From Halococcus qingdaonensis (GTDB lineage Archaea > Halobacteriota > Halobacteria > Halobacteriales > Halococcaceae), in contig NZ_CP101943.1 of NCBI RefSeq assembly GCF_024508235.1, positions 1,833,112-1,897,111 of the forward strand: a stretch of DNA of 64,000 nt, written 5' to 3'. A model generated the notes under the pieces. It searched no databases, was not told the DNA's origin, and worked only from the letters and a program-made list of their open reading frames with translations. Positions 1 to 18,619 of this stretch are shown here, one piece after another (position 1 is the first letter of the stretch; every line of letters starts with the position of its first letter). The translations under genes and the position numbers were made by a program.

Positions 1-109
1 CACCGTCGCCCCCATCAGTGCCAAACGTGGCTCGATCGGCCCGCTGACCGACGCCGTTCGCACCCACCTCCACGAGCAAAACCGCGACGACCTGTTCAAA
101 TTCTTCTGA
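1..109 (+). CDS. C-terminal end of an unidentified protein (truncated by window edge)
   Basis: An open frame enters from the left edge (codons from base 2) and stops at TGA 107-109. It encodes 35 residues, including [18 protein letters not shown] and ending in DDLFKFF. The composition looks like ordinary haloarchaeal coding sequence. I do not recognise the family from this fragment. It converges on the DUF3194 gene across a 321-bp gap filled by a hairpin-rich repeat. Confidence 0.6.
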
Positions 110-400: not shown

Positions 401-430
401 ACCGCCGCACAGCGGCCGCCACCGCAGCCA

Positions 431-1078: not shown

Positions 1079-1149
1079 ACCCGCGTTCTTGGTGTCCGCA
1101 GGGAAAAACCCCCGTTTCTCTCCCGAGTCCGCCGATCACCGAACCCACA

Positions 1150-2526: not shown

Positions 2527-2584
2527 ACACCCACCTCAGCGCACTGAGTGATAAACGCCCGCCATTCGAAACCCGCGTGAGGCG

Positions 2585-2899: not shown

Positions 2900-3033
2900 T
2901 ACTCGACGTCGATCTCTTTGACGTCGCGGCTGCGCTCCTTGAGCAGCACGCGGTGGCCACAGTACGGACAGCGCACGCCGCCGTACTCGTCGAGTTCGAC
3001 GTCGCGCTTACACCGCGAGCACTTGTAACTCAC
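2899..3033 (-). CDS. rpoP: DNA-directed RNA polymerase subunit P (Rpb12-like)
   Basis: A 44-residue protein read from GTG 3033-3031 to TAG 2901-2899. The sequence starts [19 protein letters not shown] and carries two zinc-binding pairs, CSRC and CPYC. That is the hallmark of archaeal RpoP, the Rpb12 homologue of RNA polymerase. The start overlaps the rpl37ae stop by 4 nt (GTGA) and the stop overlaps the pcc1 GTG by 1 nt, so all three are translationally coupled. Confidence 0.93.
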
Positions 3034-3308
3034 TGTTCGTCGCCGTCCTCGGCGAGCGCCGCCCGGATCGAGCGCTCGACGGTGCGCCCGCCGGGCGTCT
3101 CAGGCTGGTACGCACCGCCAGCGAAGGTGTGCCCGCAGTTGCCACATTCCCAGATGCCCGTGTCCGTCCGGTCGACGTCCGGCTCGTCGCATTCGGGGCA
3201 GGTGTGGTCGTCCTGCATGTCGGCCTCGATCTCGGCGACGCGTCGGCGGGCGACACGGCCGTAGCGTGCACCGAACCGTCCGGCGCTACCGACCTCTTGA
3301 TTACCCAT
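3030..3308 (-). CDS. rpl37ae: 50S ribosomal protein L37Ae
   Basis: The product has 92 residues. The N terminus is basic ([20 protein letters not shown]), followed by a C4 zinc ribbon with CPEC and CGNC pairs and a conserved [16 protein letters not shown] segment. Length and motifs match archaeal L37Ae, a zinc ribbon protein of the large subunit (family knowledge). It is the first gene of the run rpl37ae-rpoP-pcc1 and overlaps rpoP by 4 nt. Confidence 0.95.
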
Positions 3309-3352
3309 AGTACGCCTGCTATGCCAGCGGGCGAGTAAAACCCTTCGTGTTG

Positions 3353-4078
3353 TTACTCCCGAAACCCCTCCTCGTCGAGCGCACGATTGAGGTCCTCGCG
3401 GACGCGCTCGCCCTGCCCGCGATCGGCAGCGGTCGTCACGACCCGCACCTCCTGAACGCTCGATCCGTCGCGCACCAGCAATCTGACGTTGCCTCGTCCG
3501 TCCGCGCGGGTCGCCTTCGCCCGCACACCCGTCCGGGAGCCCCGCCCACCGGACTCGATCGGCCCCGGGATCACCTTCTTCACGTGCGGGTGATCGGTCG
3601 CGATCGCCACGATCTCGCGGCCTGCGCGCCCACCGACGAGCGTCGAGTGACTGCCGCCGAGTTTCTCCCGCGGCGGCGTCTCGACGACCGCGAGCGGCGA
3701 CTCCTCGCTTCTGGCGAGCACCGTCTCGACGGCGTCCTCGCCTGGATCCGCGACCCGACGGAGATCGTAGTGGAGCTGCCCGCGAAGCGTCCCGAGTACG
3801 TCGCGCTCGCCGGTCGCGTACACTTCTTCGGGTCGTTTGCGATGGATCTCGTCGGCGACCCTCCCCGCGAAGTTCCGGCGCTCACGCTTCTCGTCTTCTC
3901 CTTCCTCCTGAACCGTCGTCACCGTCCACGTTCCGACGCGCTCGCCCTCGAACAATCCTGTGACGCTCGCGCGCTCGCGACCCAGTTCGCAGACAACGGT
4001 GTCGACGTTCGGATGGCGACAGACGAGACAGAAATCGCCGGCCCGATCGAGGCGCGATCCACACCGCCGACACTCCAT
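3353..4078 (-). CDS. DUF2103 domain protein with N-terminal zinc ribbon
   Basis: The product has 241 residues. It opens with a zinc ribbon ([20 protein letters not shown]; four Cys in two CxxC pairs). The middle region contains the string [20 protein letters not shown] and the Gly/Arg-rich string [20 protein letters not shown], which fits the archaeal DUF2103 family annotated as predicted metal-binding. A role in RNA or nucleotide metabolism is plausible but unproven. It lies 38 bp downstream of truD on the same strand and may share its transcript. Confidence 0.75.
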
Positions 4079-4116
4079 GCCCCGATTCGAGCGTGCCGGC
4101 GGATAAGCCGGTCGAT

Positions 4117-5502
4117 TCAGCCCAGCTCGACGGGATCGGACATCAGGTATTCGCGAAGGAGCACGGTCGCGTACGATCCTTTCGGCAACCGGAAGGCGAA
4201 CGTGAGCGGGTCGTCCTCGATCGACAGCTCGGTCGTGAGCAGTATCGCCCGTCGGGTGCCAGTCGAGTGAAATTCCCCGGGGAGGTCGAACATCGACGGG
4301 TCGATCCCTTCCTCGTCGAGAATCGCACGCTCGATGTCACCCGGTTCGCCGTTTGCGAGCTCCGTTTCGGTGCCGACCAGCGGCGCGGTGACGAACGCCC
4401 GTCCACGTGCGGTGTGTCGATTGACCGTCTCGACCCGATTTTCCCCGACTCGCTGGCTCCGGTCGGGATCGGGCAGGGCAAGTCCATCGGGAGCCTCGCT
4501 ATCGGCGAAACAGACGACATCGCCCGCGACCGCCCGATCGAACGGCAGTCCTCGATCGAGGCGTGCGGAGAGGATTCGGTTGAATAAGGAGGACTGAGCG
4601 GCATTGACGAACAGCCGCTGGAGGTTCGACGGGACGGTTTCGAGCGCCGCGCGGAAGTCGTCCGAGCTCTCGCCACCGTTCTCGACCAGCCGGTGGAGCA
4701 TCGAGCGCTCGAAGCCCAACTGCCGCGGATAGCGATCGAGCGCCGCCGCCCAGTCCGCCGTCCCCGCCGCCGCGGCCTCGCGATCGACGAACGCGCGCGC
4801 CTCGCGGGTCGCGTCCGGCTCCGACTCGTGTGGACGACCGACGTAGGCGAGCACCGCCTCCCGCCAGTCGCCGCGGACGACCGCCAGTCCGACCTCGTGT
4901 GTCACCGGTCGATAGGAACCGAACCGCTGCTGGCCGAAGTAGTTCGGCACACCCACCGTCGTACCGCTTTCACCGTTTGCGTCGCCCGCGTTTTCGTCCT
5001 CGTTACCGGCGAACGCCTGGAGTGATTTCGTTATCGGCGCGACGGATTCGGTGTCGGCCTCGCGGACGACGATCTCGAAGGCGTTGCCAGCGAGATCGCC
5101 GAAGCGCAACCCCCGTCCGGCGCGCCCGATCGGATCGATCGTCGCACCATGGAGATCGATGTCGTCGAGCACGTCGCTTCCAGCACGCACGGAGAACAGT
5201 TGGGTGCTGACGGCGCGCTTGTCCTTCGTCCCCGCCCAGTCGATCCGCTCGCGGCTCATTCCGAGTTTATCCGAGAGCGCGCTCGCGAAATCGTTCGTGT
5301 CCCAGTTCTCGAGCGTCACCCGGAAGACGAGATGGGGATAGGCGTCCGGATCGGCGTCGAGCGGTTCGAACTCACCCGTTTCGAGTTCGCGCACCCGGAA
5401 GTCCGCCGGGCGCGTGCGGAACTTTCCGCCCGTACCGTCGCCGTCGCTGACGTAGTGGTCGATGCCGACCGCCCGTTCACTCGGATGGGCCTCGCGCATC
5501 AC
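4117..5502 (-). CDS. truD: tRNA pseudouridine(13) synthase TruD
   Basis: The product has 461 residues, the usual length for archaeal TruD. The catalytic motif GTKDKRA holds Asp94, matching the GxKD motif of bacterial TruD. Other family strings are [20 protein letters not shown] and the late segment [20 protein letters not shown]. The enzyme isomerises U13 of tRNAs in the cytoplasm. It lies between a TrkA-type gene (40 bp upstream) and the DUF2103 gene. The start [13 protein letters not shown] is chosen as the first ATG; the second Met is equally possible. Confidence 0.95.
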
Positions 5503-5542
5503 CGTCTCCCGCTAGCCGTCCAATTGGGATCGGGGCTGCCGT

Positions 5543-6874
5543 TCACAGCGCCGTCGCGACCTCGTCCAGCGCGTCCGTGTCGACGAACGCCACGACGCGA
5601 TCGCCGACCTGGACGACGGTGCCGCCGCGGGGCGTCTTGAGCGAACCATCGCGGACGACCGCACCGACGACGAACCCGTCGGGCAGGTCGTGTGCCACGT
5701 CGACGATGGACTCACCGGCGAGAACGCTCTCGCTATCGACGGTGATTTCGAGCACTTCGGCACTGTCGCGTTCGAGCGTTGCGGCCTCGTCGGCGTAGTC
5801 CTGCGTCGCACGCGTCGTTTCGTTTGCGACGACTGCCCGCGGCTCGACGGTCACGTCGACGCCGGCCGCCTCGAACAGGTCGACGTACTCCGAGTCGTTC
5901 ACGACGGCGGCGGTGTGGCCAGCACCGACGTTCTTCGCGAGCAGTGCCAGCACGTAGTTCGTCTCGTCGTCGAGCGTCCCGACGAGGAGGTCCGCCTCGT
6001 CGATGCTCACCTCGGTGAGGAAGCCAGCGGTCGTCACGTCGCCCTCGATGACAGTCGTCTCCGTCAGTTGTGATTCGAGTGCGTCGACGCGCCCGGGGTC
6101 GTGTTCGACCAGTCGGGGTGTGTAACCACCCTGTTCGAGCAGTTCGGCGATCCGCGTGCCGACCGTACCGCCGCCGACGATCACCACGTCGTCGTCCGGA
6201 TCGAGCGACGCGCCCGGTGTGAGCCGTCGTGCGAACCGCCTGACGCTGGAGGGACTGCCGATGACCACGACCCGGTCGTCCGCCTCGAAGACCGTCTCGC
6301 CGCTCGGGATCCGGACCGTGCCGTCGCGGATCACGCCGGCGAACGTCAGCGAGGGGAACTCGTCGGCCTCGGCGACGCTCTTGCCGACGAGATCGGCGTC
6401 GGCGTCGAGCTCGAACTCCGCCATCTCGACCTCGCCGTCGACGAACGTGCTGACCGCGAGCGCGCCGGGCAGCGCGACCGTCCGGACGAGCGCCGCGGCG
6501 GTCAGTCGATCGACCGGCAGCAGCAGGTCGATACCGAGCGCGTCGTCGAATTCCTGCCAGGTTTCGTAGAGATCGGCCGACTTCGCCCGCGCGATCGTGT
6601 AGGCGTCCGTGCTGTTCCTGACCGCGCCACAGACCATGACGTTGACCGCGTCGTCGTCCGTGCTGGCGATGACGATCTCGGCCTCGTCGATGCCCGCCGC
6701 TTCCAACGCGTCGAGCGAGCGTCCGTCGCCCTCGATGGCCGTCACGCCGAGCGTGGATTCGAGTTCGGCGACGCGCTCGCCGTCCGTGTCGACGACCGCG
6801 ATCTCGTGGCTCTCGGCGAGATCCTCGGCGATGTACGTGCCGACGTCGCCCGCCCCGACGATGACTACCCGCAT
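5543..6874 (-). CDS. trkA: TrkA-type potassium transport regulator with two RCK units
   Basis: The product has 443 residues arranged as TrkA_N-TrkA_C twice. The first Rossmann motif is VGAGDVGTYIAEDLA at the N terminus; the second, VGGGTVGTRIAELLEQGGY, lies near residue 230. Each is followed by a TrkA_C domain, the last ending in PRGGTVVQVGDRVVAFVDTD. Such proteins bind NAD(H) or nucleotides on the cytoplasmic face of TrkH-type K+ channels and gate them; K+ uptake is central to salt-in halophiles. No membrane subunit is in the window. It may be transcribed with truD, 40 bp downstream. Confidence 0.92.
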   Translation of the reverse strand: MRVVIVGAGDVGTYIAEDLAESHEIAVVDTDGERVAELESTLGVTAIEGDGRSLDALEAAGIDEAEIVIASTDDDAVNVMVCGAVRNSTDAYTIARAKSADLYETWQEFDDALGIDLLLPVDRLTAAALVRTVALPGALAVSTFVDGEVEMAEFELDADADLVGKSVAEADEFPSLTFAGVIRDGTVRIPSGETVFEADDRVVVIGSPSSVRRFARRLTPGASLDPDDDVVIVGGGTVGTRIAELLEQGGYTPRLVEHDPGRVDALESQLTETTVIEGDVTTAGFLTEVSIDEADLLVGTLDDETNYVLALLAKNVGAGHTAAVVNDSEYVDLFEAAGVDVTVEPRAVVANETTRATQDYADEAATLERDSAEVLEITVDSESVLAGESIVDVAHDLPDGFVVGAVVRDGSLKTPRGGTVVQVGDRVVAFVDTDALDEVATAL

Positions 6875-6959
6875 CGGCGAATCCTCCTCATGCCGGCGTT
6901 CCGACGGGTGTCAGTAAGTGCGTTGTGGTCGTCCGAGAACCGATAGCCCCCGGTAGAAA

Positions 6960-7085
6960 TCGCCGGACAAAACCGAAGCGGAGGCGGTGGCGCGCGGTGA
7001 ATCCGGCCGAAGGCCGGAGAGCGCGCGAGGGATGAGTGAGCGACCGAAGGGAGTGAGTGAATCGGCTGGGGAGGTATGTGGGCTG
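6960..7085. repeat. Palindromic intergenic element C between trkA and pth2
   Basis: The 230-bp gap between pth2 and trkA holds no convincing gene. It contains the perfect hairpin TCCGGCC-GAA-GGCCGGA (7002-7018) flanked by GCGCGCGGTGAA and GAGCGCGCGAGGGATGAG, then alternating GAGTGAGCGACCGAAGGG repeats. From memory, intergenic elements of this style are scattered through haloarchaeal genomes. It shares the GAA/TTC loop design with the elements at 110-400 and 52004-52235, but I could not align it to them in full. Confidence 0.6.
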
Positions 7086-7104
7086 TGCGGGGCGGTAGTG
7101 GGTT

Positions 7105-7443
7105 TTAGTACAGCGATAGATCGCCGGTAATTTGGTCGACGGTTTCCTCGGAGCCGGGGCCGACCGCGAGCGCCGTCACCGTGCCGGGATCGAGCTGCGT
7201 GTGGCCCGCGTCGCGGATGATGGCGTGGGGGAGACCTTCGCGTTCGGCACGATCGGCGAGGGAGAACAGCGTTCGCTCGCCGTCACCCTTGAGAACGACT
7301 TTCTTCTGTCCCGATCCCTTCCACTCGGTTCGCGCGCGCGAGCCGGTGTCCTCGTAGGCCGACAGCGAGGCGTGGGCGACCTGTGCGGCGAGTTTTCCCG
7401 TTCCCATCCCGATGTCGGTCCGCGCGACGATGGCCTGTTTCAT
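7105..7443 (-). CDS. pth2: Peptidyl-tRNA hydrolase Pth2
   Basis: The product has 112 residues from ATG 7443. The N terminus [20 protein letters not shown] is the Pth2 signature (K..RTD..MGKGK type), followed by [12 protein letters not shown]. The C-terminal half contains [20 protein letters not shown]. The enzyme hydrolyses peptidyl-tRNA to recycle tRNA in the cytoplasm. A longer upstream frame exists, but Pth2 proteins begin at this Met. The gene is downstream of the gas-vesicle block (76 bp from the neighbouring acidic gene). Confidence 0.95.
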
Positions 7444-7519
7444 GCCTGCCTGCGGGGCGGTATCGGTATATGACTGACTACTCGCCGTGGCAGCGGGGTC
7501 CGCTCGCGGGCCGCCCGCC

Positions 7520-7930
7520 CTACTGCTCGCTCCGCTGGTTGAGTTCGTCAACGAGCGTTCCGGCCAACTCTTCGAGTTCTTCGTCGGAGAGGGCATCGAG
7601 ATCGCCGAGTCCGCTGTTCGACTCCTCCGAATCGTCGCCGATCGAGTCGAGCGCGGCAGTCACCTGCTCGATGACCGGCGGGCCTGCCGATTCGTCGTCG
7701 GCGCTCTCGGATTCGTCGTCGGACTCCGCCGCTTCCTCGCTTTCCTCGTCGCTCGTCTCGTCTCCATCGTCGTCCGTCCCGTCTTCGGGTTCGGTTTCCT
7801 CCTCGTCATCGGACTCGTCCGCCTTCCCGCCCGCGAGCACCGCCCCTTCGAGTCGGCTGCCGAGCGAACTGCCGAGGCGCTGGCCGACGAACCCACCGAC
7901 GAAGCGCAGTATGGTGCTGACGATACCCAT
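7520..7930 (-). CDS. Acidic protein at the distal end of the gas-vesicle operon (unknown)
   Basis: The product has 136 residues. The N terminus (about 1-35, [20 protein letters not shown]) is glycine-rich and amphipathic or weakly hydrophobic. A low-complexity Asp/Glu/Ser segment follows (about 38-85), then a predicted helical tail ([16 protein letters not shown] ... [15 protein letters not shown]). It belongs to no family I recognise. It lies 137 nt downstream of gvpM on the same strand and has a good Shine-Dalgarno (GGAGG, 9 nt before the ATG), so it could be the last gene of the gvp transcript. A role in vesicle formation is inference from position and from the acidic-tail style shared with GvpJ and GvpI. 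Confidence 0.7.
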
Positions 7931-8067
7931 TTCAGTGTTCCTCCCCGATCCGCCGCGTCGTCGTTCGTGCTGTTTCGGTGTCCATGATCAGATCCTCCGC
8001 GTCGCTCGTGCTGAAAAGACGCTCGGCCGTCGACAATAATCCCGATGCTTGCAGTTGCGGGCCATGG

Positions 8068-8352
8068 TTACTCCTTCGGGATACGGCGGTCGGTCGAACT
8101 GCTCGCCAGGTCGTCGCTATCGTCGCCGTCGCTGTCGTCAAGCGCGCGCTGGCGGTGCGCTCGATCCCACTCCTCGAAGATGCCGTACTCGGTCATCGTC
8201 GCCATGCCGGCGAGCGCCGCCCGGAGTTTCAGCCCGACGAGCGGGATGTCGGCGACGCTAATGATCGCGTCGGCCTCGATGACCGCCCCGTCTCGGAGGA
8301 TGACGTCGATCAGATCGACGATGACGTCGTCATCCGCCCGTTTCGGTTCCAT
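8068..8352 (-). CDS. gvpM: Gas vesicle protein GvpM
   Basis: The product has 94 residues from ATG 8352. The core, VDLIDVILRDGAVIEADAII followed by SVADIPLVGLKLRAALAG, is the GvpA-like fold shared by GvpA, GvpJ and GvpM. An acidic Ser/Asp tail follows from about residue 70. GvpM is a minor, aggregation-prone accessory protein needed early in vesicle assembly (family knowledge). Its start lies inside the end of gvpL (23-nt overlap). The position after gvpL and the sequence separate it from gvpJ. Confidence 0.92.
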   Translation of the reverse strand: MEPKRADDDVIVDLIDVILRDGAVIEADAIISVADIPLVGLKLRAALAGMATMTEYGIFEEWDRAHRQRALDDSDGDDSDDLASSSTDRRIPKE

Positions 8353-9178
8353 CCTCACCCCCGATGGCCGGCACGAACGAGTACGGCGGCCACGGCCCGG
8401 TGAACCGGACCTCGACGCCCGTTTCGGCCGCAACCTCGTCGAGCATCTCACCCATCCCCTCCTCGTTGTCCTCGGTCGCGAGCACGGTGAACCTCGCCTG
8501 GGTCTCCATGCCGTCGTTGTCGCCCTCCTCGTCATCGAGCGTCGTCCGCTCGCCGAGTTCGTTCACATCGCGCGCGAACTCGTCGAGTCGGTCGCGCAGC
8601 GTCGCCGCGCGGTCGGTGCGGCGCTCGCGGCGCAGTTCGCGAAGTCGCTGGTCGTACTGCTTTTCGAGCATGAACGCCGTGCCCGAGCCCGCCGCCTCGA
8701 TCTCCTCGTCGAGTTCGGCGAGTCGGTCGTCGCTCGCGACGAGGTCCTCGCGCAGTGCCGCCTCCTCGCGCCGGAGTTCGACGCGGTACTCCCAGTGGCC
8801 CGCGAGCTGGTCGAGGTAGTTGGCGAGTGTCCCGCGCTCCTCGGCGACCCACTCGCGTACGCGGTCGTCGTCGCCCGTGAGAACGGTGTCGAACTGGAAC
8901 GGGATCGGCGTGCCGAACGCCTCGCCCGCCGCATCGACGACGTTCTGATGCTGGAGCACCCACTTGCGGAGTTCGTCCATGTCGGCAGTGTCGTACAGCG
9001 ACTCGCAGTCGTGGAGTACGACGCCGATGTCGTCGACCGCGAGCAGTCTGACGGGCTCGTCGTCGACACCCTCGGTGTCCGGGTCGGCCTCGTCGTCGAC
9101 GGCGACCGCACAGTAGAGATAGCGCCCTTCCTGGAACTCGGTCTCGGTCTCGCCCTCGGTGTCGGTATCGTCGGCCAT
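8330..9178 (-). CDS. gvpL: Gas vesicle protein GvpL
   Basis: The product has 282 residues of the GvpL/GvpF family. It starts with an acidic stretch and then GRYLYCAVAV. The central part is a long helical region (about 120-200, including LDQLAGHWEYRVELRREEAA), and the C terminus carries VRFTGPWPPYSFVP, nearly identical to the end of GvpF in this cluster. In Haloferax work GvpL has been reported as a hub contacting many other Gvp proteins. The ATG overlaps the gvpK stop by 1 nt and the end overlaps gvpM. Confidence 0.95.
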   Translation of the reverse strand: MADDTDTEGETETEFQEGRYLYCAVAVDDEADPDTEGVDDEPVRLLAVDDIGVVLHDCESLYDTADMDELRKWVLQHQNVVDAAGEAFGTPIPFQFDTVLTGDDDRVREWVAEERGTLANYLDQLAGHWEYRVELRREEAALREDLVASDDRLAELDEEIEAAGSGTAFMLEKQYDQRLRELRRERRTDRAATLRDRLDEFARDVNELGERTTLDDEEGDNDGMETQARFTVLATEDNEEGMGEMLDEVAAETGVEVRFTGPWPPYSFVPAIGGEDGTETGG

Positions 9179-9495
9179 TATTCGATCACTCCTCTGTCGT
9201 CGCGCTGCGGCTTGTCGGCACGCTCGACGAGATCGCGGACCAGGCCGTCGAGATCGCCACGGAGATCGTCAACCGGTTTCTCGATGCCTTCGTCCTGCTT
9301 GATCCCCTCGATCTCCTCTTCGAGCGCGGCGAGTTGCGAGCCGAGGCGCTCGATCTCCTCGTCGGTGAGTTCGCCCGATTCCATTCGTCGGATGGCCTCG
9401 CGCTCCATCGCGTCGACCAGCAGCTCGACGACCGTGACGACGAGCGTCATCAGCCCGTCGCGCGCCTCGTCACCGTCGACGTCAATCGTCGTCAT
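9178..9495 (-). CDS. gvpK: Gas vesicle protein GvpK
   Basis: The product has 105 residues from ATG 9495. It contains the GvpK core [20 protein letters not shown] and [20 protein letters not shown]. GvpK is one of the eight accessory/structural proteins reported as essential for vesicle formation in haloarchaea. The start overlaps the end of gvpJ by 14 nt and the stop overlaps the gvpL start by 1 nt, so translation is coupled along the operon. Confidence 0.94.
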
Positions 9496-10009
9496 CTGCC
9501 TCCTCCCCCGTGGCATCGGATCCCTCCGCCTGTTCCGACGGTTCGGATTCCCCGTCGGCGTCCTCGTCGGTGTCCTCGCCACTGCTTTCGTTTCCGTCGG
9601 CCTCGTCGCCACCGTCTCCCGCCGTCGATTCCGCACGCGCGCCGGCGTTCGGCCGCGCGCCGAGCTCCGGTGCGGACTGGCTCTCGGTGTCTGACTCCGC
9701 CTCCTCGCCGTCGTCAAGCGCCGCGTCGTCCTCACCGCTCTCGACGGTGACGGTATCGTCGTCCTCGAGTTCGCTGCGGTCCGATGCTTGCTCGACGCGG
9801 CGCATGTCGGTGCCGTCCGGGAACTCGAGCCCGTACTCGGCGGCCGTCTCGAACGAGGCGATCGCCGCCCGGAGCTGCACACCGAGGAGTTCGGTGTCGC
9901 CGATCGAGACGACGATGTCGGCGTTGATGACGACGCCCTTGTCGAGCAGCATCTCGACGACGTCGGCGAGGCTGTCGGATTCGCGCGTCGGCCCGCCGCT
10001 GTTACTCAT
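9482..10009 (-). CDS. gvpJ: Gas vesicle protein GvpJ with long acidic tail
   Basis: The product has 175 residues. The N-terminal 70 ([20 protein letters not shown], then [20 protein letters not shown]) form the GvpA-like core. From about residue 75 to the end the sequence is low complexity, dominated by Asp, Glu, Ser and Gly. Halobacterium GvpJ is around 115 residues, so the tail is roughly 60 residues longer. GvpJ is an essential minor vesicle protein. It overlaps gvpI by 8 nt and gvpK by 14 nt. The tail's coding DNA overlaps the gvpK start, so the extension is at least preserved as an open frame. Confidence 0.93.
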
Positions 10010-10982
10010 CGTTGCCCTCCCGTTCGTCGAACCGCCGACCGTAGATGCGGTAGTGGCCGGGCGCGCTCGAATGCTGTGTCTGCTTCGGCACGGTCGAGAA
10101 ACTCGCCGACGACCAGCCGCCCGCCTTCCAGCCGGCGACCATCGTCGAGTAGGCCGTCGGGTTCCGCGAGGAGGGCTGGCCCGTCCCGCCGCCGGTCTTC
10201 TCCTCGACTTTCTCCTGGGCCGTATCGCGCGCCTCCTTCAGCTGATCGCGCGCGTCGAGGGCGCTCTCACGGAACTCCTCGACGGCATCGCGGAGCTGTG
10301 ACTGGATGGCGAGCTGTTTGGCCTGTCCGTCGTCGAGGATCGACTCCTCGCCGTTGCTCGCGTCCTCCATATCGGGCGTGTCGAACGAGTCCAGGAGACC
10401 GGAATCGTCGCCGGTCTCGCCGTCACCGTCCTCGTCCTCGTCGTCGGTGACGTCGTCGGCTGCCTCCTCGAGTTCGTCCTTGTTCTGCATGAACGCGCGC
10501 ACGTCGACGGCGTCCCAGAGCTCGCTGAACTCGACGAGCGACGCCAGCTGTGTGAGATCGAGCGCCCGCCTTGGCTCGGCGTTCGCGATCGCCTCCGGCA
10601 CGTCCTCGCCCTCGATGGCACTTGGCAGCTCGCTCAGCTCGACCGCCTCGGGGAGTTCCGAGAGATCGACGGTGTCGAGCAACTCGTCGGTCTCCTCGAT
10701 GACATCGACGAGGTCGTCGATGTCGTCCTTCGCATCGGCGTAGTTCTCCTCGCCGCTCAGCACGCCGAGCAGCGAGTCGATGTCTCCCTCGGCGCGATCG
10801 AGCAGCGCCGCCAGCTCGGTGTCGGAGTCGACGAGCCCGCTACCGCTCTCGTCTTCGCCACTGCCGTCGTCCCCGTTACTGCCGTCGCCACCGTTCTCGC
10901 CCTCCGCGGCGGACTGCGAGTGTTCGAGCGCCGAATCGAGCTTCTCGGCGGCTTCGGCCATCGGTTCGCTATCGTCACTCAT
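10002..10982 (-). CDS. gvpI: Gas vesicle protein GvpI, greatly extended
   Basis: The product has 326 residues from ATG 10982, which sits in an 8-nt overlap with gvpH; ATG 10991 is an alternative start. The C-terminal part (about 220-326) is helical and then contains [32 protein letters not shown] and GRRF, which I recognise as GvpI-like. The N-terminal 220 residues are acidic, with repeated short units ([18 protein letters not shown] at 106-123) and [20 protein letters not shown] at 151-170. GvpI in Halobacterium is reported as small and basic, so this may be a fusion or a lineage-specific long form. It is not among the eight essential genes. Confidence 0.75.
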
Positions 10983-11451
10983 TCCGTTCATCCTCCAGCC
11001 ACACGTCCAAAACTCCGTTGTTGAACGACGCGTCGGCGACGACGAGACCCGTCTGCGGGAGCGGGACGCGCTCGACGATGCCCTCGTCGTCGGCGACCAG
11101 AAGCGTCCGTCCATTCCCGCCGACGCCCGCTGAGAGTTCGTGTGGATCGACATCGGACAGATCGATTGTCACGACCTGTCCTTCCTCGGTCTGGCTGACG
11201 GTCGCAGCGTGATCGGTTCCCGAGATGGGCTCGGCGCTTTCGTCGCCCCCGACCTCGGTTCCGTCGCGCCCGTCGATCCCGGACTGCGGACCGATGCCGA
11301 CGCTGAGACCGTAGTCGAGTCGTTTCCGCCCGCTGCGTGCGCTCCCGGTTCTCGATCGCTGGCGTCGGTCGTCCTCGTCCATCTCGGCGAGGGTCTCGAA
11401 CAGCCCCGAGAGGATCGTCCGAACGACGCCGGTGTCCTTCTTGTCTGTCAT
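10975..11451 (-). CDS. gvpH: Gas vesicle protein GvpH (Hsp20-like)
   Basis: The product has 158 residues. The C-terminal half (GQVVTIDLSDVDPHELSAGV, then VVADASFNNGVLDVWLEDER) has the beta-rich pattern of the Hsp20/alpha-crystallin fold with the final GVLDV strand. This matches haloarchaeal GvpH, a non-essential chaperone-like protein affecting vesicle shape and stability (family knowledge). It overlaps gvpG by 4 nt and gvpI by 8 nt. Confidence 0.9.
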   Translation of the reverse strand: MTDKKDTGVVRTILSGLFETLAEMDEDDRRQRSRTGSARSGRKRLDYGLSVGIGPQSGIDGRDGTEVGGDESAEPISGTDHAATVSQTEEGQVVTIDLSDVDPHELSAGVGGNGRTLLVADDEGIVERVPLPQTGLVVADASFNNGVLDVWLEDERNE

Positions 11452-11699
11452 TGTTTGACCTCCACTTTGTTCGTGAGCGTCTCGCGCGCCTCGCGCGCCA
11501 CGTCCAGTTGCGTCCGCAGTTCCTCGCGGCGACGCTCGTACTCCTCTTCCGAGCGATCGCCGATCTCGAACAGCAGTCGGTTTTCCTTGATCTCGTCGCG
11601 GATCGACTCGACGTCGTACAGCTCCTCGACGGCCATCGAGTGGATGACGTTGCCGACCGCGACGATCGGCCGGAGCAGTAGATCGTCGATGATGAACAT
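11448..11699 (-). CDS. gvpG: Gas vesicle protein GvpG
   Basis: The product has 83 residues from ATG 11699. It contains the family motif MFIIDDLLLRPIVAVGNVIH followed by a charged coiled coil (EEYERRREELRTQLDVAREA). GvpG is one of the proteins essential for vesicle assembly. It starts 1 nt after the gvpF stop and overlaps gvpH by 4 nt. Confidence 0.95.
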   Translation of the reverse strand: MFIIDDLLLRPIVAVGNVIHSMAVEELYDVESIRDEIKENRLLFEIGDRSEEEYERRREELRTQLDVAREARETLTNKVEVKQ

Positions 11700-11700
11700 G

Positions 11701-12330
11701 TTACTGTTGGGTGCCGATCTCGATGTCCACGAAGTTGTACGGCGGCCACGGCCCGGTGTACTGGACCGTGAGGACGTCGCCGTAGTCGTCGGTGACGGCG
11801 TCGACCGCCTCGTCGAAGGCGACCCGTTCGTCACGGTCGACGAGATACGAGCGGTTCATCACGAGGCGGTCGCTGAAGCGATCGTTCTCCTCTTCCTGGA
11901 CGCTCGCTGCGGCGAAGCGTTCACTCGCCGCTTCGCGGATCTCGTCGGCGTCAACCGTCACGTCCTCGTCGACGACGAGTTTGACGCCGAACTCGGCCAG
12001 CCCCTCGATCTCGCGCAACGACTTCGTGAACGCGCGTCGCCCGCCCCGGAGGACGTTCTTGAGCGTGCGCGCGTTCTTGAACACCGAACCGAACTGCATC
12101 GGGACCACGGTTCGGCCGCCCGCATCGAGCAGCACGTCCTGGAGCACGTCGTCGTGCGCGCGGGCGTTCTCGTCGGTGAGCTCGGGGTCGAGCGTGTCGA
12201 TATCGGTCACGACGGCCGCGAGCGGCCCGTGACTCACCGTGTATGCGTGCGTCGCTCCGGCGACACCGTCGACGTCGAGTTCGAAATCGGCGTCCTCGAC
12301 GACGCCGTAGGCGTAGAGATGATCGCTCAT
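11701..12330 (-). CDS. gvpF: Gas vesicle protein GvpF
   Basis: The product has 209 residues from ATG 12330 (MSDHLYAYGVVEDADFELDV). It is a GvpF/GvpL family protein; residues around 75-90 read RTVVPMQFGSVFKNARTL, and the C terminus has VQYTGPWPPYNFVDIEIG. In other haloarchaea GvpF binds GvpA and is thought to keep it from premature aggregation. It is the first gene of the leftward operon. A TATA-like CTAATAGG (12381-12388) sits about 54 nt upstream, predicting a short leader. Longer in-frame upstream starts run past this TATA and are rejected. Confidence 0.95.
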   Translation of the reverse strand: MSDHLYAYGVVEDADFELDVDGVAGATHAYTVSHGPLAAVVTDIDTLDPELTDENARAHDDVLQDVLLDAGGRTVVPMQFGSVFKNARTLKNVLRGGRRAFTKSLREIEGLAEFGVKLVVDEDVTVDADEIREAASERFAAASVQEEENDRFSDRLVMNRSYLVDRDERVAFDEAVDAVTDDYGDVLTVQYTGPWPPYNFVDIEIGTQQ

Positions 12331-12507
12331 GATCTGAGTATGGACGTACTGCGCGTCGTGGCCCGGGTTCGGCGGTCGCGCTAATAGGCGTGTCGCCGGC
12401 ACATGCAGCCACCCCCACCCCGACCGCCCCGCTCTCCAACCCACACTCGGGTTGCCTGCCCCTGCTGGCCCAAAGGATATTATACCGGGCGGAGTTGTGC
12501 TGGTACG
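12331..12507. promoter_or_regulatory. Divergent gvpF/gvpA promoter region with inverted repeat
   Basis: This 177-bp region separates the leftward gvpF operon from gvpA. Rightward TATA-like box: GATATTATAC at 12476-12485, 27 nt before the gvpA ATG, so gvpA mRNA is probably leaderless or nearly so. Leftward TATA-like box: 12381-12388. A perfect inverted repeat CAACCC-N6-GGGTTG (12437-12454) lies about 20 nt upstream of the gvpA box, where an activator could bind. The region in between is C-rich (about 12404-12430). Confidence 0.65.
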
Positions 12508-12816
12508 ATGAGCGCACGACCCTCAAGCGACAGTCTGGCCGAAGTGCTTGATCGGATCCTCGACAAGGGGATCGTCATCGACGTCTGGGCACGGGTGTCC
12601 GTCGTCGGGATCGAGATCCTCACCGTCGAGGCACGGATCGTCGCCGCGTCCGTCGACACGTTCCTCCACTACGCGAAGGAGATATCGAAGTTGGAGATGG
12701 CGACCGAATCGGGCGATCTGGAGGATCTCAAGGACCTCGACCTCGGCACGTCGCCGATGACCCAGCCCGAGCCCGACGAGCCGGAGGTCCGCATCGAAGA
12801 GGACGCCGAGCAGTAG
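12508..12816 (+). CDS. gvpA: Major gas vesicle structural protein GvpA with C-terminal extension
   Basis: The product has 102 residues. The core [40 protein letters not shown] and [10 protein letters not shown] is nearly identical to known haloarchaeal GvpA, the wall protein that forms the ribs. Halobacterium GvpA has about 76 residues. Here an extra stretch follows residue 70: [12 protein letters not shown], then an acidic Pro-rich end ([18 protein letters not shown]). It is the only gvpA in the window. gvpO follows after 56 nt; gvpC and gvpN, normally between them, are missing. Confidence 0.96.
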
Positions 12817-12838
12817 TCGCGCCCGGGGCACCGAGCGG

Positions 12839-12848
12839 TAATTTATTC
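12839..12848 (+). promoter_or_regulatory. TATA-like box of gvpO
   Basis: TAATTTATTC is centred about 29 nt before the gvpO ATG (12873) in the 56-nt gap after gvpA. The spacing predicts a leaderless gvpO transcript independent of, or additional to, read-through from gvpA. Confidence 0.55.
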
Positions 12849-12872
12849 ACGACGCCGAATACGTAGGACATC

Positions 12873-13433
12873 ATGGCCGACCTCGATCCAGGCGAGCACA
12901 CGATAGACGAACTGCGCGACGAACTCGACGACATCGACGACCGCGAGACGCTCGAAGAGCTTCGCGAGGCCGAAACCGACGGCGAGGACCGGACTGGCGC
13001 GAAAGAAGCCATCGACGAGCGCCTCGACGCGGTCGACGACGAAGGCGACAGCGACGGAGATGAAAGCGAGAGCGGCGAGGACGAAGAAAGCGACGAGGAA
13101 GACGACGAGAACGAGGGAAGCGACGAAAGCGCAGGAGGCGGGCAGGACGGCGACACGGTCGGCATCGTCGACATCCGCGATCACGTCCAGCAGAACGCCA
13201 GCGACCTCATCGGCCGGCCGCTCGACGGCATCGTCGAGATCGAGCGTACCGACGACGGCTGGCGCGCGCTGACCGAGATCATCGAGCGGCGCTCGGTGCC
13301 CGACACTCAGGACATCCTGGGGCGCTACGCGCTCGATCTCGACGATTCGGGGCGCATCATCGGCTATCGTCGGCTGGAGCGCTACCGGCGCGGCGACACC
13401 AAACGCGACGAGGAAGCACCCGCCGGCGGCTGA
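12873..13433 (+). CDS. gvpO: Gas vesicle protein GvpO with acidic N-terminal region
   Basis: The product has 186 residues. The C-terminal half (VQQNASDLIGRPLDGIVEIE, DDGWRALTEIIERRSVPDTQ, ILGRYALDLDDSGRIIGYRR) is the GvpO domain, essential for vesicle formation in haloarchaea. The first 90 residues are helical and then almost pure Asp/Glu/Ser/Gly, longer than in Halobacterium GvpO as I recall it. It is the last gvp gene on this side; dcd starts 48 nt later and has its own TATA-like CTTTAGG near 13452. Confidence 0.93.
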   Translation: MADLDPGEHTIDELRDELDDIDDRETLEELREAETDGEDRTGAKEAIDERLDAVDDEGDSDGDESESGEDEESDEEDDENEGSDESAGGGQDGDTVGIVDIRDHVQQNASDLIGRPLDGIVEIERTDDGWRALTEIIERRSVPDTQDILGRYALDLDDSGRIIGYRRLERYRRGDTKRDEEAPAGG

Positions 13434-13481
13434 CGGCCGGAAACGGAGAGGACTTTAGGAGCCACGTCGGTACGAACGGGT

Positions 13482-14141
13482 ATGATACTCGCCGATGGGG
13501 ACATCCGGCGGCGGCTCGACACGGGCGAGCTCGTCATCGAGCCGCTCGCCGACCCCGAGCTCCAGATCCAGCCCGCGAGCGTCGATCTCCGGCTCGGCCG
13601 CGAATTCCTCGAATTCCAGCGGACGAACATTCCCTGCATCCATCCCAATTCGGAAAACGAAGTCGACGAATACGTCACCGAGACTGTCGTCGACGAGGGC
13701 GGGGAGTTCATTCTACATCCTGGTGATTTCGTCCTCGGGACGACTGTCGAGCACGTCGGAGTGCCCGACGATCTCATCGCACGCGTCGAGGGCCGGTCGT
13801 CGCTCGGGCGGCTCGCGATCGTCATCCACGCGACGGCGGGCATCGTCGATCCCGGCTATCAGGGCCAAGTCACCCTCGAACTCTCGAATCTCGGCACCGC
13901 GCCCGTCGCGCTCACACCAGGGATGAGGATCTCACAGGTCATCTTCACGGAGCTCAAAAACGCCGCCGAAGTGCCCTACGGCGACGAGCGCGGCTCGAAA
14001 TATCAGGGCCAGGTCGGCCCGCAGGCCTCGAAGATCGGCAGCGACGACGAGTTCGGCGGCAGCCAGCGGCCCGATCATGAAACCCCTGACCGGCGATCGG
14101 GCGAGGCAGATCGGGCAAACGAGATGGAGGACGAGCGATGA
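13482..14141 (+). CDS. dcd: dCTP deaminase
   Basis: The product has 219 residues. The trimeric dUTPase-like fold is shown by [20 protein letters not shown] (29-48), the nucleotide-binding motif [11 protein letters not shown] (102-112) and [20 protein letters not shown]. The enzyme deaminates dCTP toward dUTP (or dUMP in bifunctional archaeal forms) for dTMP synthesis. From about residue 190 a hydrophilic acidic tail ([20 protein letters not shown]) goes beyond the enzyme core and overlaps the next gene by 4 nt. Confidence 0.95.
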
Positions 14142-15025
14142 GGTTCATCGAGGAGATCGTCGTCGACGAGTTCCTGCCCACGTTCCGCTCGCTGTTGGCT
14201 GAGCGCCTGCGCGAGCACGATCTCACCCAGAGCGAGGTCGCCGACATCCTCGGGATCAGCCAGTCGGCGGTGTCGAAATACGCCCACGGCGAGGTCGCGC
14301 GCAACGAGCGCGTGCTCGACGACGAGCGCGTCGCCGGGCTCGCCGAGGATCTCGCCGAGGGGCTCGCCAACGACGAACTGACGAGCGTCGGCGCGCTCGT
14401 CGAGAGCGAGATCCTGATCCGCCAGCTCGAACGCGACGACCTGCTCTCGGAGCTCCACGCGGCGGCGATGCCCGGCCTCAATGAATACGACGGCTTCGAC
14501 GTCCACGACCCGGAGAGCAGCCTCCGGGCGGCCGAGCGCGCCCGCTCGTCCGTGCGCCGCGGGATTGGCACGCTCGAAGCCACGAGCGGTTTCGCCGGGC
14601 TGATCCCGAACGTCGGCTCGAACCTCGTCGAGTGCGTTCCCGACGCCACCGACATCGACGACGTGGCGGGCGTTCCCGGTCGCATCTTCGACGTCAAGGG
14701 GCGGACGACGGTTCCGGGCGACCCCGAATTCGGCGTCTCGGCTCACGTCGCCGGCGTCCTGCTCGCCGCGCGCGACAACGGCAACGACGCGCTCGCCGCG
14801 CTCAATCTCGCCTACGACGCCGATCTCGTCGATCGACTCGAATCGCTCGATCTCGCGACGGTGGAGTTCGACGGCGAACGCGACACCGACGATGCGATCG
14901 CCGCCGTCGACGCCGCCGCTGCCGACGCGCTCTACCATACCGGCGGGTTCGGCGTCGAGGCCAACGTCTACCTGCTCGCCCCGAGCGCCGCCGACGCCGC
15001 CGCCCGCGTCCGCGGGCTCCTCTGA
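14138..15025 (+). CDS. thiR: ThiR-like HTH-ThiN transcriptional regulator
   Basis: The product has 295 residues. An N-terminal XRE-type helix-turn-helix lies at about 29-50 ([20 protein letters not shown]). A linker helical region follows, then a ThiN (thiamine-phosphate synthase-like) domain from about 120 to the end, with [20 protein letters not shown] and [20 protein letters not shown]. This HTH-ThiN architecture was described as ThiR, a repressor of thiamine biosynthesis genes in archaea that senses thiamine phosphate through the ThiN domain. The ATG overlaps dcd by 4 nt. Targets cannot be seen here: no thiamine genes are in the window. Confidence 0.88.
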
Positions 15026-15027
15026 CG

Positions 15028-15732
15028 ATGAGCGATGGACGCGCCAGCAAGGAGGGAACGGAAACGGATGGCGCGAGCGAAGCACAGAGCTTCTACGGCC
15101 GCTGGGCGCGCCTCTACGACACCATCGCTACCTTTCCAGGAATCGGGTCGTGGCGCGAACGTGCCGTCGAGAGTTTAGAACTCTCGCCCGGCGACACGGT
15201 CGTCGAGATGGGCTGTGGGACGGGCGCGAACCTCCCGTATCTGCGCGAGGCGGTCGGGCCGTCGGGCACGGTCGTCGGCGTCGACTTCACGCGCGGGATG
15301 CTCGATCGTGCGCGCCGACACGTCGCGGCCGCCGGCTGGACGAACGTCCATCTCGTCCGCGGCGACGCCACCGCACCGCCGATCGAACGCGCCGACGCGG
15401 TGCTCGCGAGCTTCGTCGTCGGCATGCTCGCCGATCCGGCCGCAGTCGTCGAGGACTGGCTCGCGCTCGTGCGCTCGGGTGGGCGCGTCGCGCTGCTTGA
15501 CGCCACGCGCAGTACCCGGACGAGCGCGAAACCGCTCGACGCCGCCTTTCGGTTTTTCGTCGCCGCGAGCGCGCCGCCGACCCGACAGTTGCGCTATGCG
15601 ACGCCGCCGTGGAAACCGCTCGACGAGCGCGTCACTGCTGCTCGCCAGCCGCTCGAAGAGCATACTGAAGAGTACGACAGTACGGAGTTCGCGCTCGGCT
15701 TCGTCCGTCTGGCGAGTGGGTACGTTCCCTGA
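15028..15732 (+). CDS. Class I SAM-dependent methyltransferase
   Basis: The product has 234 residues from ATG 15028, 2 nt after the thiR stop. SAM-binding motif I is VVEMGCGTGANLPYL, followed by GTVVGVDFTRGMLDRARRHV and the acidic VRGDATAPPIERADAVLASF. The N-terminal FYGRWARLYDTIATFPGIGS resembles UbiE/phospholipid methyltransferases. The substrate is unknown. It could share the dcd-thiR transcript. It converges on the VanZ gene. Confidence 0.85.
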   Translation: MSDGRASKEGTETDGASEAQSFYGRWARLYDTIATFPGIGSWRERAVESLELSPGDTVVEMGCGTGANLPYLREAVGPSGTVVGVDFTRGMLDRARRHVAAAGWTNVHLVRGDATAPPIERADAVLASFVVGMLADPAAVVEDWLALVRSGGRVALLDATRSTRTSAKPLDAAFRFFVAASAPPTRQLRYATPPWKPLDERVTAARQPLEEHTEEYDSTEFALGFVRLASGYVP

Positions 15733-15782
15733 TATTCCATACCCGCCAGTTCTCTGTCGGCTTCGTCCCGCTTTGATCGCGG

Positions 15783-16202
15783 TCAGCGCACGGTTCCCGA
15801 CTCGTCGATCGGGCCGAATCGCACGTATCGCGCGAGCGACCGCCAGCCGAGCGCGAGCAGGCAGGCCCCGATCGCATCGGCGAGCGCGTCGGCGACGCTC
15901 GCGGTCCGGTAGGCGATCGGCCACTGGACGATCTCGATACCGATGCCGAAGGCGACAGCCAGCCCGACCGCGAGCGCCAGCCGGGCGTGACCGTTCTCGA
16001 TCGAGGCGTACGCGAGCGTCGCGGTCACTCCTGCATAGGCGAGCGCGTGCGACCACTTGTCCATCCCGACGAGCCCGAGCGGTCCGACGCTCGGCGTTCC
16101 GCTCGCCTCGACGACCGAGGCGACAAGGACGACGCCGGCGACCAGCACGACGAGTGCGTAGCGAACCCGGCGATCGACGAGCGGGATGGACGGCGATCTC
16201 AT
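15783..16202 (-). CDS. VanZ-like membrane protein
   Basis: The product has 139 residues from ATG 16202 with about four hydrophobic helices. The VanZ family signature is visible as MDKWSHALAYAGVTATLAYA (Asp-Lys-x-x-His) and IGIEIVQWPIAYRTASVADA (E..Q ... D.aD). VanZ-like proteins are small membrane proteins of mostly unknown function. It converges with the methyltransferase and is divergent from the DUF2298 gene. Confidence 0.82.
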   Translation of the reverse strand: MRSPSIPLVDRRVRYALVVLVAGVVLVASVVEASGTPSVGPLGLVGMDKWSHALAYAGVTATLAYASIENGHARLALAVGLAVAFGIGIEIVQWPIAYRTASVADALADAIGACLLALGWRSLARYVRFGPIDESGTVR

Positions 16203-16303
16203 GACAGGACTGGCGACCGGCAGCAAAAGCGGTGCGATGGCGGTCGAGTCGTGTGATCGGACATCCAAAGGTGTATAACGGATGTTCTCGGAAAAATCAA
16301 CGG

Positions 16304-18613
16304 ATGGAGTACGGTCTCGTCGCGCTGTGGTGGCTGACGTACGTCGGTCTCGCGCTGTTCGGCCTGCCGGTGGCCGCACGGCTGTGCTCGTCGCTACCGG
16401 GCCGCGGTGCGGGCTTTTCGTTCGCCATCTCGCTGGCGATCATGACCCTCGTCGCCTTCTGGGTCGGTTTCCTCTCGCTCGGCTGGGTCGCCCTGTTCGC
16501 GGGACTCGTCGCGCTCGCGATCTGTGCGGTGCTCGCGGCCCAGTCGGGCGTCGAGATCGATCGCCGGGCGACCGTCGAGGCGGTAGCGGTGTTCACGCTC
16601 GTCTACCTGTTCGTCATCGCGCTGCGATCGGTCGAGCCGGGCATCACGCCGGGCGGCGAGAAGTTCCTCGATTTCGGGCTCGTGGCGTCGCTGTACCGTG
16701 CCGGGAGCCTCCCGCTCGAGGACTTCTGGTTCGCCGGCGAGTCGATGATCTACTACTACGGCGGCCACTTCGTCGTCACGCTGCTGGCCCGTCTGACCGA
16801 TACGGTCCCGTGGACGGCGTTCAACCTCGCGATGGCGGGACTGTTCGGCTCGCTCGGGGCCGGTGCGTACGAGCTCGCCGGCGCGGTCGCGGTCGGGCGA
16901 CGCGCCCGCCGAACGATTCGCTCGTACAGCAGTCGAACACGCCGGACCGCCGGCGCAACGGCGGTCTTCTTCACGATATTCGCGAGCAACCCCTCGACGG
17001 CGGTGCGCCTCCTCATCAAGCGACTGCCGGCGTCGATCGGCGAGAGAGCCGCCGACGCGTTCGCGGCGGCACACTCCAAGCTGCCGGACTATCAGGTGCT
17101 CCGGCCGATCCCGTCGGACTACCAATACAAGGTCGCCGGGCGCATCATCCCCGAAACGTACGACCCGTTCCCGCTGTTCGGCGCGGTCCGGGGCGACATC
17201 CGCCCGTACTTCACGAGCACGCCGTTCCTGCTCTGCGTGGTCGGGCTGTGTTACGCCTACTACCGCACGCCCGCCGCGTCGGTCCGTCGACGGCGCGCGA
17301 TCGTCTTCGGTGCCGTGCCGATCGTCGGGGGGTTTATGGCACTCGTCAACACCTGGAGCCTGGCCATCGTCCTCGGGATGACGTGGCTGACGCTGACGTT
17401 CGCCCCCACCGACCTTCGCTCGCTCGTTCCGACCCGGCTCGCCACCCGCATCGACCGCATCGTGGGCGATCCACCGACCAGCAGGCCGCGAGGGGCGCTC
17501 GTGCGGACGGGCGGCGCGGCCGGACTCTCGGCGGTCGTGGGCGTGATCGGCGTTCTCGCCGCGCTTCCCTTCTTCCTCGGACCGGTGCAGGCCGGACCGA
17601 GCACGTCGCTGATGGTCCTCGACGCCGCCGCGCGCAGTTCGATCGGTTCGCTGCTGCTCGTCCACGGCGCGTTCCTCGCGATCTTCCTCACTCTCCTGCT
17701 CGCCCGCAGTCGCCGGCGCTGGTCGTCGACCGTCGCCGTCGCTGGCGGGCTGGGGTTCGTCGCCCTCGTCGCGTTCGTCCCGAGCGCACTCGCGCCGATC
17801 GCGCTGTTCGCGGTGCCGCTCGTGCTCTGCTGGTATCTCCTCGCGACCGATCGCATCGGCTTCGTGGGCGTCCTCGTCGTCGCCGGGTTCGGACTGCTCG
17901 TGCTGCCCGAACTCGGCTTTCTCGCCGAGGGCGGCGACGGACGGTTCAACACCGTCGTGAAGACGTACATGCCGACGTGGATCCTCTGGGCGAGCGCCGC
18001 CGGCGTCGTCCTCCCACGACTCGTCCGCGGTCGCGGGCCGTGGAACTGGACGCGCCGCCAGCAGGTCGCCAGCGCTCTCGCCGCCGTGCTCGTGCTCTCG
18101 ACGGCCGCGTTCGGCGGCGTCGCCGTCCAGCGCCATTTCGCCGATCCGAACGTCGAGGAGCCGACGCTCGATGGGCTGGCCGCCGCCGAGGAGAACGTTC
18201 CGGGCCAGGTCGCGGCGATCCGCTGGCTCGACGACCGCTCCGGCCGGCCGACGATCGTCTCGGCACCCAGCCGCTACGTCTATCGCTGGAGTGCGAGCCC
18301 GGCCGCCAGCCTCACGGGCGTCCCGACGGTCGTCGGCGTCTCTCACGAGGCGCAGTATCGCGGCCGGCAGACGTATCTCGATCGGGTGTACGCCGTCAAC
18401 ACCATCTATCTCGGCTCGGCCGAGCGCCGTGCCGCGCTGCTCGAACGATACGACGTGAGATACGTCTACGTGGGGCCGACAGAGCGCGATCGATACGGCG
18501 ACATCCGCCCGTTCTCCGAGCTACAGGGCGTCTCGGTGGCGTTCCAGGAGGACAACGTGACGATCTACGCGGTCGATCAGGAGCGGTTGGAAGCGCCCCC
18601 GGAGGAGACGTGA
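16304..18613 (+). CDS. DUF2298 (YYY) polytopic membrane protein
   Basis: The product has 769 residues from ATG 16304, with a TATA-like GTGTATAACG at 16271-16280. It contains many transmembrane helices. The first luminal loop carries PGGEKFLDFGLVASLYRAGS, LEDFWFAGES and the Tyr triplet MIYYYGGHFVV that names the YYY family (DUF2298/TIGR03662). A soluble C-terminal domain follows the last helix (about 600-769). The topology resembles GT-C glycosyltransferases such as DUF2206 or PMT proteins, so a lipid-linked sugar transferase role is possible but unproven. A longer in-frame upstream start lies before the TATA and is rejected. Confidence 0.88.
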   Translation: MEYGLVALWWLTYVGLALFGLPVAARLCSSLPGRGAGFSFAISLAIMTLVAFWVGFLSLGWVALFAGLVALAICAVLAAQSGVEIDRRATVEAVAVFTLVYLFVIALRSVEPGITPGGEKFLDFGLVASLYRAGSLPLEDFWFAGESMIYYYGGHFVVTLLARLTDTVPWTAFNLAMAGLFGSLGAGAYELAGAVAVGRRARRTIRSYSSRTRRTAGATAVFFTIFASNPSTAVRLLIKRLPASIGERAADAFAAAHSKLPDYQVLRPIPSDYQYKVAGRIIPETYDPFPLFGAVRGDIRPYFTSTPFLLCVVGLCYAYYRTPAASVRRRRAIVFGAVPIVGGFMALVNTWSLAIVLGMTWLTLTFAPTDLRSLVPTRLATRIDRIVGDPPTSRPRGALVRTGGAAGLSAVVGVIGVLAALPFFLGPVQAGPSTSLMVLDAAARSSIGSLLLVHGAFLAIFLTLLLARSRRRWSSTVAVAGGLGFVALVAFVPSALAPIALFAVPLVLCWYLLATDRIGFVGVLVVAGFGLLVLPELGFLAEGGDGRFNTVVKTYMPTWILWASAAGVVLPRLVRGRGPWNWTRRQQVASALAAVLVLSTAAFGGVAVQRHFADPNVEEPTLDGLAAAEENVPGQVAAIRWLDDRSGRPTIVSAPSRYVYRWSASPAASLTGVPTVVGVSHEAQYRGRQTYLDRVYAVNTIYLGSAERRAALLERYDVRYVYVGPTERDRYGDIRPFSELQGVSVAFQEDNVTIYAVDQERLEAPPEET

Positions 18614-18619
18614 GCCGGT

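Follow-up and report, generated by a model that had tools for sequence, protein, structure and literature searches.

The long acidic GvpI of Halococcus qingdaonensis is the common form among sampled haloarchaea with gas-vesicle genes, and GvpI has unlinked paralogs in other genomes

Archaeal gas-vesicle assembly has been studied mainly with Halobacterium proteins. In the 64,000-nucleotide stretch of Halococcus qingdaonensis analysed here (contig NZ_CP101943.1, forward-strand positions 1,833,112 to 1,897,111; hereafter the window), the gene in the position of gvpI encodes 326 residues. The first-pass annotation had described it as a fusion of an acidic, repeat-bearing N-terminal domain to GvpI and implied that its length and composition were odd. 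Our analysis indicates that it is a regular gvpI belonging to a gas-vesicle cluster of the Halococcus type, and that its long acidic form is the one used by most sampled gvp-bearing haloarchaea.

Orthology to GvpI was assigned because of the gene position, the C-terminal helix and the STxP tail of the protein. The window cluster carries gvpA and gvpO on the plus strand and gvpF, G, H, I, J, K, L and M on the minus strand, with gvpI located between gvpH and gvpJ of a gvpFGHIJKLM operon. Most relatives share this order, gvpH being undetected in some. As claimed at first, only the C-terminal part is GvpI-like: residues 220-326 align with the GvpI encoded on pNRC100 of Halobacterium salinarum NRC-1 (28% identity, expectation value (E) 3e-9 with composition adjustment switched off), and both proteins contain NPxAxSTM, STVP and a RIYGRR/RLYGQR block. 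The window protein is therefore a GvpI that stands outside the Halobacterium-type short sub-kind, with 326 versus 118-166 residues and without a strongly basic character. The reading frame is real, and its start at 10982 is backed by relatives aligning from residue 1 with 89-90% identity; the nearest are Halococcus thailandensis (90%) and Halococcus morrhuae (88-89%). An over-called frame with the true translation start near residue 216 would yield a normal short GvpI, and nothing but the existence of that short form speaks for it. The upstream frame and its protein are conserved, with 89-90% identity in relatives and roughly 30-50% across families, which leaves this explanation hardly credible.

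The survey sample comprised 293 genomes of the order (genomes and fetched loci are denoted G and L, respectively). GvpK (PF05121) was detected in 119 of them and GvpI-family profile matches in 123, all 119 gvpK-positive genomes included. Long GvpI was found in 110 of the gvpK-positive genomes: in 109 a match at most 4 kb from gvpK was listed, and G127 adds a long GvpI that is fragmentary and lies where its contig ends. The remaining nine match in the C-terminal part only, have frames of 118-166 residues and represent the short form. In 42 of the 44 long-GvpI cluster loci (the window locus, L032-L034 and L055-L094) the proteins measured 246-388 residues, lengths that are lower bounds since some starts are internal methionine choices, and their computed isoelectric points (pI) were 4.05-4.49; L063 (start mis-called, 80 residues) and L067 (contig end, 128 residues) were excluded from the length range. 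GvpI of such length and composition is thus the common haloarchaeal form, which is what the first-pass annotation had named as its refutation, and the oddity implied at first has gone. Four profile-positive genomes lack gvpK, namely G096 with a gvp cluster cut by the contig end, G158 with a relic, G207 with a class III gene (see below) and G146 (profile E 1.6e-4, no tblastn match). The survey shows that GvpI-family genes are nearly confined to gvpK-positive genomes. In L032 (Halocatena marina), a long gvpI (9674-10780) lies beyond gvpO, and degenerate gvpI-like frames (4945-5651) are present between gvpG and gvpJ.

Residues 1-219 of the window protein contain 75 Asp/Glu and 7 Lys/Arg and carry a net charge of -68, while residues 220-326 carry -1 (+2 in residues 266-326) and the whole protein -69. 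The charge reversal relative to Halobacterium GvpI proposed at first is borne out by computed pI values of 4.05 for the window protein versus 10.04 for the pNRC100 protein. The extension flips the charge of the whole protein, and residues 220-326 themselves, with a pI of 6.2 when taken alone, are still not basic as in Halobacterium GvpI; the short-GvpI counterpart of the helix at residues 216-263 is basic. Conservation of at least 90% was found for R238 of this helix in alignment A1 and, within the tail, for P275, A277, S279, S296, T297, P299, S305, Y314, G315 and R317 (45 rows).

The repeated LPEAV/I units that the first-pass annotation had described in the N-terminal part recur beyond chance. 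In the 44 aligned long proteins of A1 (34 from clusters and 10 encoded by the orphan genes described below, the short L031 row being excluded), tested against 300 column-shuffled controls, residues 96-169 gave autocorrelation peaks at lags of 9 (z 9.1) and 18 (z 7.6) residues and a weaker three-residue signal (z 3.9). As far as the literature shows, this nine-residue repeat of the N-terminal core is new relative to the literature searched. The N-terminal part might alternatively be functionless acidic low-complexity padding of a haloarchaeal kind, which would suit segments 1-51 and 171-215, both variable acidic linkers, and a structural model confident only in part. This is improbable given that residues 96-169 align nearly without gaps across haloarchaeal families and keep their nine-residue period, and that E97 and D160, among other positions, reach at least 90% conservation across 35 long proteins.

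Table 1. Features of the window GvpI and neighbouring genes (window positions; pLDDT, predicted local distance difference test score)
Feature	Position	Strand	Basis or remark
gvpI, long acidic form, 326 aa + stop	10002..10982	(-)	Translation; relatives in gvp clusters matching over the full length; C-terminal part homologous to pNRC100 GvpI
Ser/Asp/Gly/Glu-rich N-terminal segment, residues 1-51	10830..10982	(-)	Net -14; conservation poor
Two predicted helices (53-75, 81-104), residues 52-100	10683..10829	(-)	AlphaFold2, block pLDDT about 70-84
Seven nine-residue units, residues 105-167	10482..10670	(-)	Period-9 autocorrelation z 9.1; fold without confident prediction
Acidic linker, residues 171-215	10338..10472	(-)	21 Asp/Glu, zero Lys/Arg
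Long helix, residues 216-263	10194..10337	(-)	AlphaFold2; alignment to Halobacterium GvpI
GvpI tail with FSTVP, HSSAP, RIYGRRF, residues 266-326	10005..10187	(-)	Net +2; best-conserved part of the family
gvpH	10975..11451	(-)	Pfam PF05455 E 2.4e-9; 8-nt overlap with gvpI frame
gvpJ	9482..10009	(-)	NCBIfam NF046090 halo_gas_GvpJ E 2.5e-43; 8-nt overlap with gvpI frame
Glycine-zipper acidic protein, 136 aa, downstream of gvpM	7520..7930	(-)	phmmer matches in same-genus gvp loci

A search for a separate N-terminal gene did return weak, partial profile matches to the N-terminal part, but the 19 that were fetched, a subset of these matches, are paralogs with a tail of their own. These proteins, which we term class III, constitute a second, more distant GvpI paralog of 221-356 residues and pI 4.05-4.17. 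They have an N-terminal LLE..LPDGSEPDSIPEAIARGD block, in most cases a helix, and in all 19 two STx[AP] motifs in the tail. For 13 of these proteins the profile match extends no further than model position 214 and so stops short of the STMP motif, which occupies 227-230; in these 13 the tail therefore provides independent support for homology. A true fusion between a short ancestral GvpI and an acidic repeat protein unrelated to it would accord with two halves of distinct composition and with the existence of a short form. It is nevertheless unlikely, as no gene for the N-terminal domain only was present among the fetched matches, the orphan and class III proteins carrying this domain mostly possess the helix and STxP tail too, and the long form occurs in 110 of 119 genomes. 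The fusion history put forward in the first-pass annotation is therefore unsupported. The first two of these observations make it no less likely that the short lineage lost the N-terminal part than that the long lineage gained it by fusion.

Class III is the last gene of an operon, alpha-beta-gamma-III, found at loci L159-L176, L178, L074:1391-3534 and L083:260-3039. By motif, the 19 class III loci yielded 15 frames for alpha, 11 for beta and 16 for gamma, as a rule lying upstream in the same orientation. Alpha is an acidic protein with LDLDGLFLDLLGLEV...NLLGNLLSAV, beta is a glycine-zipper protein, and gamma combines a glycine zipper with the end TLEDFLGIMSYxDLQSIAKDVGVKANLSREEM, which we take to be SAP-like. 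For seven operon proteins from two loci, neither Pfam nor NCBIfam returned a match at E <= 0.01.

In the G239 family, class III (E <= 7e-15) was found in 107 of 111 gvpK-positive genomes and in one of 14 gvpK-negative ones (G207), a co-occurrence with a Fisher p of 2e-13, uncorrected for relatedness. The gvpK-positive exceptions are G281, G284, G309 (55% complete) and G263, whose weak match (E 7e-8, place unlisted) was not scored as class III. Of the 107 genomes, 105 have the gene on a different contig from gvpK or over 20 kb distant from it; in G347 and G349 the distance is 7-8 kb. Outside this family, 80 genomes chosen by hand showed class III in 17 of 55 gvpK-positive and none of 25 gvpK-negative genomes (p 9e-4, likewise uncorrected). 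It was found in none of the eight GvpC-bearing genomes, and a search of the window genome matched only its cluster GvpI.

Searches with alpha, beta, gamma and class III profiles furthermore detected alpha in the fetched flanks of 15 of the 44 long-GvpI cluster loci and of none of the 11 short-GvpI loci. Alpha is located between gvpH and gvpI in L060, L061, L062, L064 and L066; in L074 gvpM is followed, in the same orientation, by the full alpha-beta-gamma-III set, which adjoins gvpO in L083. The window cluster gave no alpha match. Because of this physical linkage and the co-occurrence with gvpK, we regard the operon as a probable part of the gas-vesicle system. The 136-residue glycine-zipper protein encoded downstream of gvpM in the window has phmmer matches in the same-genus gvp loci L056, L065 and L068 (E 1.9e-60 to 3.7e-29) and is weakly similar to the beta gene of the L074 operon (phmmer E 8e-4).

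A further group of paralogs consists of orphan gvpI genes, defined by a distance of over 4 kb to the nearest gvpK or by a contig different from that of gvpK. Among the 150 matches listed, a limited set of candidates per genome that makes orphan counts lower bounds, there are at least 36 orphans in 36 genomes, all gvpK-positive; G096 was left out, its gvp cluster being cut by a contig end, so that the count is 36 instead of 37. No other gvp gene was present in the flanks of about 5 kb of 17 orphans, while the other 19 were called on gvpK distance alone. In the G239 family, at least 42 of 111 gvpK-positive and none of 14 gvpK-negative genomes have an unlinked match among those listed. Ten orphans, nine of the G239 family and L046 of another, form one group in the midpoint-rooted gene tree (support 1.0). 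Since orphans of loci assigned to Halalkalicoccus, Haladaptatus, Halomarina and Halococcus branch outside this group, several origins are likely.

In nine of the 20 orphan loci fetched (L036, L037, L039-L041, L045 and L047-L049), a same-strand pdxS-like gene, recognised by motif, is situated no more than about 1.6 kb upstream. By eye, the L048 orphan looks frameshifted near its end and the L049 orphan has an internal deletion. The gvpK-negative genomes G158 and G321 retain only a C-terminal gvpI relic beside pdxS (L141:6022-6185 and L142:5968-6234), which fits decay after gas-vesicle loss. In the Haladaptatus-type orphans L043 and L044, extra tandem STM[PQ] units at the C-terminus replace the YGxR end. 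Viral relatives were sought as well, and none of 18 pattern matches was confirmed.

A midpoint-rooted tree built on the GvpF, G, J, K, L and M proteins of 57 clusters unites the 11 short-GvpI clusters in one clade (ultrafast bootstrap 100), inside which the nine GvpC-bearing clusters constitute a subclade (support 89). The textbook cluster is thus one lineage. Its short GvpIs have a pI of 9.5-11.9 in 11 of 11 clusters, calculated from approximate starts. With at most 6 GvpC and 4 GvpD candidates scored per genome, strong GvpC matches (E < 1e-17) occurred in eight of the 293 genomes, which are eight of the nine short-form and none of the 110 long-form genomes; GvpD was strong in seven of the eight, and the window genome gave no GvpC match. 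L156 (G024) and L145 (G284) combine a short GvpI with no gvpC, D or E detected in the fetched stretch and are sister to the GvpC-bearing clade.

Haloarchaeal GvpC has internal repeats, and in clusters without gvpC the N-terminal repeat domain of long GvpI might stand in for it by binding the GvpA shell and strengthening or shaping it. This would account for the mutual exclusion of GvpC and long GvpI, and according to PMC4390858 both GvpI and GvpC affect vesicle shape in Halobacterium. We consider it quite doubtful. Comparison of the long GvpI alignment with haloarchaeal GvpC by hhalign revealed no profile similarity (probability 0.7%), and on this basis the idea that the N-terminal domain consists of GvpC repeats was rejected; the GvpC lineage is a single clade, so the exclusion weighs as one evolutionary event; and two short GvpIs, in G284 and in the second cluster of G024, have no detected GvpC nearby.

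We consider it probable instead that the window gene is the usual long gvpI, in which the helix and tail would form the working core that limits vesicle elongation, and the acidic repeat domain an added scaffold. The helix and STxP tail are assigned this role because they are what the window protein shares with Halobacterium GvpI; by analogy, they would pair with GvpH, dock on GvpL/GvpF and limit elongation. The acidic repeat domain may add protein-protein contacts within the assembly complex, and the Halobacterium-type lineage, basic and mostly equipped with GvpC, may have lost this domain or never had it.

Several points weigh against this reading. The size-control role derives from the short protein and may not transfer to the long form, on which no experiment turned up in the papers retrieved. 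To speak of a scaffold is guesswork, since the N-terminal domain matches neither Pfam nor NCBIfam models above cut-off, and the structure prediction of the two halves suggested at first succeeded only in part: AlphaFold2 (22 sequences) returned confident helices at residues 53-75, 81-104 and 216-263 while the repeat block and tail remained of low confidence (mean pLDDT 58, predicted template modelling score 0.22). Besides, the two short GvpIs without detected GvpC count here too, and the association of GvpC with short GvpI, being that of a single clade and hence one event, carries little mechanistic weight. Below cut-off, the window protein matched FliH (E 0.004) and two of 45 members matched GvpQ (best E 0.0018), other matches being confined to single members. 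A Foldseek search with the mostly low-confidence model gave no fold match at E <= 0.001, and a LIM-domain protein matched by sequence in the Protein Data Bank (E 2e-15, 7 stretches) was discounted, similar composition being the probable cause.

Passages of PMC7688916, PMC4390858 and PMC9501494 report that Halobacterium GvpI and GvpH bind each other strongly, that both bind GvpF and GvpL, and that gvpI deletion results in extremely long vesicles. A proposal in PMC7688916 is that very positive GvpI connects negative Gvp proteins. The window protein, with its net charge of -69, cannot act as such a bridge. Provided that roughly nine of every ten gvpK-positive haloarchaea (110/119) carry the long form, acidic in 42 of 42 measured loci, charge bridging by GvpI cannot be a general mechanism. 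Moreover, the unlinked paralogs and the alpha-beta-gamma-III operon are candidates for missing gas-vesicle genes, which bears on attempts at expressing haloarchaeal vesicles in other hosts. Altogether, we lean towards a wider picture in which GvpI would be the founder of a larger gas-vesicle family: many haloarchaea would carry a largely unrecognised, often unlinked alpha-beta-gamma-III accessory module ending in a GvpI paralog with an acidic N-terminal LPxxI block, a helix and tandem STMP motifs in its tail, orphan gvpI duplicates would have arisen probably several times, Halobacterium-type genomes would have GvpC instead of class III, and the textbook picture would describe a minority system.

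Our literature search, in which subscription journals were mostly missing, yielded no paper recognisable as describing unlinked GvpI paralogs or the alpha-beta-gamma-III operon; as far as the literature shows, the unlinked paralogs are new relative to what was searched. The extension itself has a precedent. N-terminal extensions of more than 200 residues were reported in 2012 for Nmag_0338 of Natrialba magadii, which according to a passage of the same paper has no gvpC, gvpD or gvpE relatives, and for Htur_2370 of Haloterrigena turkmenica (PMC3403918). These GvpIs belong to another family than that of the window, and neither the repeat nor unlinked paralogs are mentioned in the passage.

Haloarchaeal GvpC, an accessory protein of the same vesicles, was not found alongside long GvpI in our sample. 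The pNRC100 cluster includes gvpC, D, E and N; in window positions 1-20000, none of these four genes was detected. Its GvpI (144 residues, WP_010890525.1) sits between gvpH and gvpJ like the window gene and has a helix and an NPxAxSTM...STVP...YGxR tail homologous to those of the window protein, but it does not possess the 219-residue acidic N-terminal part and has a pI of 10.0 versus 4.05.
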